A DNA stretch of 64,000 nt from Niallia sp. XMNu-256 (GTDB taxonomy: Bacteria > Bacillota > Bacilli > Bacillales > Cytobacillaceae): positions 3,264,501 to 3,328,500 of the forward strand of contig NZ_CP137636.1 in NCBI RefSeq assembly GCF_036670015.1, written 5' to 3'. The position numbers and the translations under genes were made by a program. This document shows, piece after piece, positions 1,731-36,785 of this stretch. The notes under the pieces are model-generated. The model saw only the letters and a list, made by a program, of their open reading frames with translations. It was not told the DNA's origin and did no database searches. How positions within the stretch are numbered: the stretch's first letter is position 1; each line of letters opens with the position of its first letter.

Positions 1731-1779
1731 ATAAAAATAGCCCTTACAACATGTATACATATACACAATCTGTAAAGGC
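1731..1779 (-). terminator. Riboswitch expression-platform terminator
   Basis: On the minus strand GCCTTTACA pairs with TGTAAGGGC over nine positions (one G-U), and the stem is followed by TATTTTTAT. It sits between the aptamer and the pilin gene. The first three bases of the 5' arm (GCC) are also the 3' end of the aptamer, so aptamer closure and the terminator probably exclude each other. Confidence 0.8.
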
Positions 1780-1843
1780 CGGTTGCACCAACTGCTCCAA
1801 ATGACTCAGGTGCCCAAATACAAGTCATTCTTCATAACATCCA
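1777..1843 (-). promoter_or_regulatory. Class II cyclic-di-GMP riboswitch aptamer (candidate)
   Basis: Read on the minus strand, the element has the hallmarks of the c-di-GMP-II family. A stem AATGACT/AGTCATT encloses a loop containing TTTGGGCACCTGAG. The loop CACC pairs with a downstream GGTGC to make the pseudoknot, which runs straight into GCAACCGGCC. The known family has the same order, UUGGGCAC, then a stem closing strand, then GUGCAACCG. The partner strand of the closing helix P1 is not clear to me. Overlap of the 3' end with a terminator fits a ligand-on switch controlling the pilin gene. A covariance-model search with Rfam RF01786 would decide it. Confidence 0.83.
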
Positions 1844-1868
1844 ATAATTAATATTAGGTTAGAATTAT

Positions 1869-1896
1869 TTTATATTAACACCGACAAAGTTAGCAA
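1869..1896 (-). promoter_or_regulatory. Candidate sigma-A promoter of the pilin operon
   Basis: A -35 TTGCTA (1891-1896) and a -10 TATAAA (1869-1874) are separated by 16 bp. Transcription would begin near 1862, about 20 nt before the aptamer. Confidence 0.45.
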
Positions 1897-7560: not shown

Positions 7561-7745
7561 ATGTAATGGATTCTACACTAATACTTATACTACCGAAAAA
7601 ATGGCTATGTCGTCAATAAGGATAACCTTATTTTTTGTCGATTATACTTATACTCGGCCATTAATTTAAGGTGAAAATCATCAAGCACCCATCACCCAAA
7701 TGTTTCATAACATAATGATAAGCGAAATGGAAGGAGTTGAGGTCC

Positions 7746-29807: not shown

Positions 29808-30036
29808 TTGAAAAGCGGAAGCGCCTTGTCCAGCGACGTATGGACTGACTTGCACAGGATGTGCTGACATCGACGTTTGCAACAGGACGTTGCAGCTTTT
29901 TAGTCGATGTTCCTCCCTCTGAGATAAAGGAAAACACGATGAACACGTAGTGTGAATCGATGTTGACGCAATCGTTGCGGAAGGATGGGAAGTCCACTAG
30001 TCGCTAGGCGTTGGAGCTAGACTGTTCTCTTTTATA
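29808..30036 (-). repeat. Dispersed GC-richer repeat between leuB and leuC
   Basis: The ends read GAAAAGCGGAAGCGCC and GGCGTTGGAGCTAGAC on the plus strand. Both are characteristic of a repeat common in Bacillaceae intergenic regions. The interior holds several inverted repeats (for example CATCGACGTTTGCAAC with GTTGCAG... and ACATCGA/TCGATGT). Base composition is clearly richer in G+C than the flanks. The small minus-strand frame across it is not considered a gene. Confidence 0.75.
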
Positions 30037-36475: not shown

Positions 36476-36785
36476 TAAAAAGCCCTTTCATCCCTAATCA
36501 GCCAGTTTAATAGCTAAGGGATGAAAAGGCTTTGAGAACCTGTTCCACGGTACCACCCTCGTTTACGCAAAAAGCGTACACTCAAGAACAACTTAGTTGT
36601 TCGTTTTGGTAACGAGTGTCGTACACTCGGCTTATCTTAATAAACAAATTGTTGTTCAGATAAGCATTCAGAGGTGAGTTCATTTAATACGCGATTCACC
36701 GGTTCCCAGCTACCCCGGCTCTCTTGGCAATCAAACGTAAGAAATTACTTGTCCTCTTCATCACTTTTTCTTAATAGTAAGTATA
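36476..36785 (-). promoter_or_regulatory. T-box leader, leucine specifier (CUC), of the ilv-leu operon
   Basis: The T-box reads GAGGGTGGTACCGTGG. The specifier context is GAA-CTC-ACC (codon at 36676-36678). The terminator is AAAGCCTTTTCATCCCTTA paired with TAGGGATGAAAGGGCTTT (36476-36533) plus a T run. Uncharged tRNA-Leu should induce the operon. The region 36786-37054 beyond it is AT-rich, with no gene I can support. Confidence 0.93.

Follow-up and report, generated by a model that had tools for sequence, protein, structure and literature searches.

The 64,000-nucleotide stretch of Niallia sp. XMNu-256 DNA analysed here (the window) carries on its minus strand a class II c-di-GMP riboswitch, which probably governs a type IV pilus operon through premature termination of transcription. 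We base this on four features read from the sequence, namely the aptamer, its overlap with a terminator hairpin, the gene order and the conservation of all these in relatives. The riboswitch is ordinary in kind and informative in context: it presents a testable case in which a single messenger would act on the mRNA for a machine and, probably, also on the motor that assembles it.

A class II c-di-GMP aptamer ahead of pilA

A preliminary description of this locus had named a class II c-di-GMP riboswitch, with a hairpin loop and a downstream pairing partner on the minus strand, and had suggested an Infernal search with RF01786 and a look at stem covariation in homologous leaders; the elements named there are borne out by our analysis. 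cmscan, run with 4227 families over the entire window, identified RF01786 (c-di-GMP-II, the class II aptamer) at 1851–1768 of the minus strand, over the full length of the model (positions 1–84), with a score of 69.2 bits (gathering cut-off 53.5, E-value 1.9e-13). It is the only RF01786 match in a search of the whole 4.36 Mb genome. On the minus strand UUUGGGCACC sits in the P3 loop, closed by the stem GAAUGACU/AGUCAUUU, and GGUGC within the downstream GGUGCAACCGGCC pairs with GCACC of this loop to form the pseudoknot, which is invariant across nine orthologous leaders. Folded alone, with the pseudoknot omitted, the aptamer is no more stable than its shuffled versions (z +0.9); folding energy was therefore dropped as evidence, and the support comes from the covariance model and from covariation.

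For the latter we fetched 95 sites from 72 of the 193 genomes of the GTDB family and aligned 88 distinct full-length sequences, leaving out six duplicates and one truncated site. Over these 88 aptamers, 92.8% of the cells are paired in P2, 93.7% in P3, 98.9% in the pseudoknot and 54.9% in P1; for the whole structure the value is 79.0%, compared with 29–41% for slid versions. The covariation score for P1–P3 plus the pseudoknot is 0.485 versus 0.212 in shuffles. Changes on both sides were found in 24 of 27 pairs (shuffle mean 21.8, equalled by 17 of 500 shuffles), including four of the five pseudoknot pairs, the first of which is G-C in 47 sequences and A-U in 40. Judged by these comparisons the element is a genuine c-di-GMP-II riboswitch, with c-di-GMP as its predicted ligand.

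Terminator overlap and rival readings of the leader

Folding places an intrinsic terminator hairpin at 1780–1739 of the minus strand, with five U at 1737–1733. Its 5' arm (1780–1770) is the 3' end of the aptamer: the arm begins at 1780, within the conserved CAACCGGCC and inside the aptamer match at 1851–1768, and the stem ends at 1739. The hairpin has an estimated energy of -19.8 kcal/mol, which is reduced to -9.1 kcal/mol once the nine aptamer-core nucleotides CAACCGGCC are blocked; the stretch 1779–1731 folds at -18.6 kcal/mol (z -4.8), a value equalled by none of 200 shuffles. The built-in terminator scan of the tool, whose loop and stem rules are narrower, reported none at this leader. The pilin ATG lies at 1667, 64 nt past 1731. 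Thus the overlap of the 5' arm with the aptamer end and the distance of 64 nt to the pilin start are found just as the preliminary description had reported them.

The same arrangement recurs in relatives. In each of the GTDB family's 11 pilin-linked sites the first nucleotide of the 5' arm lies 5 or 6 nt into CAACCG, and blocking nine nucleotides at CAACCG in pilin-linked sites costs 32–64% of the terminator folding energy. Four further named leaders have a pilin-like gene on their 3' side: that of Halalkalibacter akibai (L136) fits the overlap scheme, its 5' arm likewise starting inside CAACCG as in the family pilin sites; that of a Tepidibacter MAG (L171) fails the U-run rule, despite a hairpin with a U-tract that is readable by eye; the terminator scheme does not fit those of two Clostridiales MAGs (L186 and L197). 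In an alignment of the nine orthologous leaders the outer stem of the terminator is paired in 91.9% of the cells, two outer pairs change on both sides, and the covariation score of the whole hairpin exceeds that of 500 out of 500 shuffles; pairs that change on both sides are no more numerous than in shuffles (239 of 500), and the alignment slid by +2 yields equally many both-side cells (14).

By the computed overlap, the terminator and the ligand-bound aptamer are mutually exclusive structures. With ligand absent, GGCCUUUACAG at the 3' end of the aptamer would pair with the downstream UUGUAAGGGCU to form the terminator ahead of pilA; with c-di-GMP bound, the pseudoknot and P1 would keep CCGGCC, the terminator would not form, and RNA polymerase would enter pilA. 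Because the terminator starts inside the aptamer 3' end, ligand binding should switch transcription on, and the riboswitch is very probably an ON switch for the type IV pilus operon at high c-di-GMP, so that a high level of the messenger would lead to pili. That ligand binding turns pili on had also been predicted in the preliminary description, and the overlap in all 11 pilin sites agrees with this direction, which is deduced from sequence. Making and breaking of c-di-GMP in this species is plausible, since the genome encodes GGDEF (6 matches) and EAL (4 matches) domains.

The function of this particular copy is possibly weakened. P1 consists here of GG/CC plus two pairs beyond a UU/UU mismatch, which leaves only two strong pairs, and its estimated duplex energy of -0.6 kcal/mol is the weakest among the 11 pilin sites (the others range from -2.2 to -6.4 kcal/mol); over the 54 sites covered by the estimate the median is -3.6 kcal/mol, with values above -0.4 in the weakest twentieth. 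Next to GG/CC, an A-U pair at position 9 of P1 is present in eight of the nine orthologues and missing only from this copy. Two or more departures from the 25 nearly invariant columns of the aptamer occur in 15 of the 88 family sites; this copy has two, a U in place of C15 and a G in place of A60. The former lies in P2 and retains a G-U pair; the latter affects a position that is A in 84 of the 88 family sites and in all eight other orthologues, in a part of the junction which we take to be near the ligand, and it may contact the ligand site. A P1 weaker than at any other pilin site, taken together with the core departures, makes weakened function possible; the preliminary description mentions neither feature. 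The changed position 60 along with the weak P1 keeps lower affinity or early decay alive as a rival reading, according to which the aptamer would bind c-di-GMP poorly and the terminator would keep the operon largely silent or let it be expressed solely through read-through. We nevertheless consider this reading unlikely. The score of 69.2 bits is far above the cut-off, and the other 23 nearly invariant columns are intact. G or U at position 60 is seen in 4 of the 88 family sites (this one included) and in 7 of 81 named sites among the matches listed, the remaining 74 having A. A weak outer P1 is common in the family, as its pairing in 54.9% of the cells indicates, and the terminator is intact.

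A different objection concerns the promoter. The candidate TTGCTA-18-TAAAAT at 1896–1867 of the minus strand, which would place the transcription start just 5' of the aptamer, has 9 of 12 consensus matches; this is no better than chance, so the promoter call by consensus was rejected, and no other promoter stands out upstream. It could accordingly be argued that transcription starts inside or below the aptamer, which would then lie outside the pilin mRNA. We regard this as very improbable, because nine orthologous operons and all 11 pilin sites retain the aptamer together with the overlapping terminator ahead of pilA, and because three pilin sites (G041, G042 and G043) have a 10/12 promoter match just upstream, albeit one equalled by 24–30 of 500 shuffles. 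Slightly less probable still is a variant with a different ligand, such as the c-di-GMP-II offshoots GAG and GCG, for which models exist (PMC9943018 and PMC12452182, from the parts available), as in a lax search of 1150–2000 the canonical RF01786 tops its clan, with two weaker clan matches overlapping it and omitted by the tool.

The pilus operon, its intercistronic hairpin and PilB

The genes downstream of the c-di-GMP-II riboswitch constitute a type IV pilus operon: Pfam and NCBIfam identify a pilin, prepilin peptidase, PilM, PilB, PilT and PilC together. The order on the 3' side of the aptamer, as read in a longer stretch of the locus (L002), is pilA, pilD, two prepilin-like genes, a gene with a weak GspK match under the cut-off, pilM, two genes in the places of pilN and pilO, pilB, pilT and pilC, all on one strand, in agreement with the type IV pilin operon of the preliminary description. 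pilA (1667–1257, minus strand) encodes a prepilin with an N_methyl signal (PF07963, E-value 7e-10; TIGR02532 over its cut-off) and is preceded by the Shine-Dalgarno-like run GGGGG at 1681–1677. pilD (1184–417, minus strand) encodes a prepilin peptidase of the A24 type (PF06750, E-value 3e-30; PF01478, E-value 8.9e-18). A minor pilin gene (404–3, minus strand) is cut by the window edge, and the operon runs on outside the window. pilM was identified by PF11104 and pilB by the T2SSE and MshEN domains of Pfam; the two genes lying between them gave no Pfam match and are called pilN and pilO from their position, with orthologues in three other operons (L239, L240 and L244). The upstream neighbours are a gene for a thioredoxin-fold protein (PF13462) and genes that we call folC and valS, putative assignments from their own sequence and from matching genes in relatives. 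The window also contains two T-box leaders, at 7562–7308 (before the gene called valS) and at 36770–36514, and a Bacillaceae-1 RNA (RF01690, 62.9 bits) at 29919–29851, all on the minus strand.

A PilB of at least 73% identity, which marks the first pilus type, is present in 11 of the 193 family genomes; the next match, at 57%, belongs to a second pilus type. The aptamer stands before pilA in nine of the 11 genomes with orthologous PilB. The other two, G114 and G159, have first-type operons without it, and neither the motif search nor the lax Rfam search of the corresponding loci (L239 and L240) found a hidden degenerate aptamer there. These two also have no minor pilin genes recognised by our search; the same is true of G125, yet G125 carries the aptamer. 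In the second type the order is pilB-T-C-A-D-M in both loci read (L241 and L242), and two genomes of this type, G042 (L241) and G043 (L057), carry an aptamer with terminator upstream of pilA, in G042 within the interval from pilC to pilA. In the other four genomes from the window's genus the best PilB match reaches only 53–57%; the first pilus type with its riboswitch was therefore either gained here or lost in them.

Between pilA and pilD folding and conservation reveal a further hairpin (1236–1208, minus strand), whose context 1198–1246 folds at -30 kcal/mol (z -10.2). A pattern of this hairpin allowing up to three mismatches occurs once in its own genome and in 7 of the 193 family genomes, with one copy each, all seven at the pilA–pilD junction; the reversed control pattern has no match in the 193 genomes. 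Altered forms are visible in the alignment of the remaining four first-type operons (G159, G186, G188 and G189), while G041 has an exact copy by the pattern, so the hairpin is present in every one of the 11 orthologous operons, including the two that lack the aptamer. A terminator rule applied after pilA finds none in G186, one of ten leaders, where the hairpin is nonetheless visible in the alignment. Searches of 299 genomes of the order added a copy between pilA and pilD in G278, which belongs to another family and is not among the RF01786 matches of the order sample. A further match in G410 has no pilus genes beside it and was taken as chance, the reversed control also giving one match in the 299 genomes. 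Among the seven pattern copies, which were chosen for likeness, three hairpin pairs change on both sides, as many as are reached in 2 of 500 shuffles. Two other assignments were rejected: a dispersed repeat, in view of the one genome copy and the one GCTGTC/GACAGC repeat in the window, and the Rfam matches at this place, which are all below their cut-offs (e.g. SR1, 29.6 bits against 45).

Our first guess was a leaky terminator favouring pilin over machinery, because many copies of the hairpin have a T-run on their 3' side; an attenuator or a stabiliser of the transcript could also be envisaged, and the conserved bulged G suggests that there is more to the hairpin than a leaky terminator. If the genes are co-transcribed, read-through past the hairpin, which would probably thin the transcript, would continue into pilD, the minor pilin genes, pilMNO, pilB, pilT and pilC.

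The product of pilB contains an MshEN domain of the c-di-GMP-binding type (PF05157, E-value 6.7e-23). Like the MshEN-type PilB/MshE ATPases, it has two tandem 24-residue motifs, RLGDLLVEASIITEQQLMDALHEQ and then RLGDQLIAMNLVSEQQIIEVLEFQ, with a five-residue spacer. The first fits the relaxed form of the published motif, whereas the second differs at one position, with N instead of the published G, A or S (PMC5013675, in its accessible part). The motif pattern is common to the four first-type PilBs read (L002, L239, L240 and L244), and RLGDLLVESG is also present at the N-termini of the two second-type PilBs. We predict that the MshEN domain of PilB probably binds c-di-GMP. Combining these elements, one can envisage a layered control, in which c-di-GMP gates transcription through the riboswitch and assembly through the MshEN domain of PilB, and the bulged hairpin is a dedicated element for the ratio of pilin to machinery; we offer this scheme tentatively, as it is rather doubtful in its entirety.

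Other targets of the class and known systems

The preliminary description had considered the class rare in Bacillaceae, a view that has to be abandoned: RF01786 matches are present in 72 of the 193 genomes of the GTDB family, in 148 of 397 genomes sampled from the order and in 88 of 398 sampled from the class (the draws overlap). A scan of named records found the core pattern in at least 119 stretches, of which 80 were listed; the records include Cytobacillus, Robertmurraya, Halalkalibacter, Sporosarcina, Oceanobacillus, Paenibacillus and many Clostridia. A motif search identified a pilin-like gene within 700 nt downstream in 8 of 81 pattern sites among the matches listed, and two more (L134 and L141) have at the pilin's place a frame of 120–121 aa with a signal outside the motif used.

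Classification of the 95 family sites by fixed rules yielded 32 with a terminator, 41 with a ribosome site using the aptamer 3' end and 22 with neither, compared with means of 6.1 terminator and 7.9 ribosome-site assignments (maxima 9 and 11) in 20 rounds of shuffling the downstream 130 nt. All 11 pilin sites are of the terminator kind. A large cluster of surface-protein sites (c0), two tested members of which have Ig-like domains (PF17936, PF12245, PF19077), is of the ribosome-site kind, with one member (G113) meeting both rules. Other targets, each a single tested example, encode a PAS-MCP protein, a Cache-PAS-GGDEF protein, a GGDEF response regulator, a PAS-GGDEF-EAL protein and a PilZ protein. 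The class II riboswitches thus form a family-wide set: those before pilus genes work through terminators, those before adhesin genes through masking of the ribosome site. At sites before surface or small secreted-protein genes (L087, L093, L073 and others) the aptamer 3' end CCCTCTTA can mask the ribosome site TAAGAGGAG, and the pseudoknot is changed to ACACT/AGTGT. We also observed overlapping tandem c-di-GMP-II aptamers before small secreted proteins in G132 and G190 (L087, 1201–1360; L119, 1201–1363), the matches sharing 8–9 nt; tandem class II riboswitches ahead of surface-protein genes have been published (PMC9481103, as far as its available text goes).

The literature accessible to us, mostly without subscription papers and in part as excerpts, contains no recognisable account of a class II c-di-GMP riboswitch before a Bacillaceae pilus operon. 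It does contain a pil operon in Bacillus sp. NRRL B-14911, reported in 2011 (PMC3244431), and a pilus cluster with an MshEN PilB in Paenibacillus thiaminolyticus, reported in 2022 (PMC9765702). Pilin riboswitches are thus known from Clostridia and pil operons from Bacillales, and the combination described here is an extension of known systems.

Among these systems, the Bc RNAs of the Bacillus cereus group resemble the present case in being c-di-GMP riboswitches of Bacillaceae, and Bc2, which precedes an adhesin gene, is an ON switch (PMC4933901, PMC6366702); they differ in their class I aptamer, non-homologous to class II (PMC12452182), and in the genes concerned (all three sources in the parts available). 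The closest counterpart is Cdi-2-4 before pilA1 of Clostridioides difficile, a member of another class of Bacillota. C. difficile 630 has four class II and twelve class I predicted sites, whereas in the present genome a single class II site was found, and a class I search, whose control was also silent everywhere, gave no match. From the available portions of PMC6200980 and PMC6366702, the class II riboswitches of C. difficile, including that of pilA1, are ON switches in all four cases. Cdi-2-4 shares with our riboswitch the aptamer class, the terminator before the pilin gene and the pilus genes that follow; its ON direction was proven by experiment, whereas here it is predicted, and partial read-through reaches the downstream pilB operon (same sources). 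Here, pilA is followed instead by the conserved hairpin and then by pilD, the minor pilin genes and pilMNOBTC. Direct control of pilus transcription by c-di-GMP, as worked out in C. difficile, would thereby be extended to Bacillus relatives.
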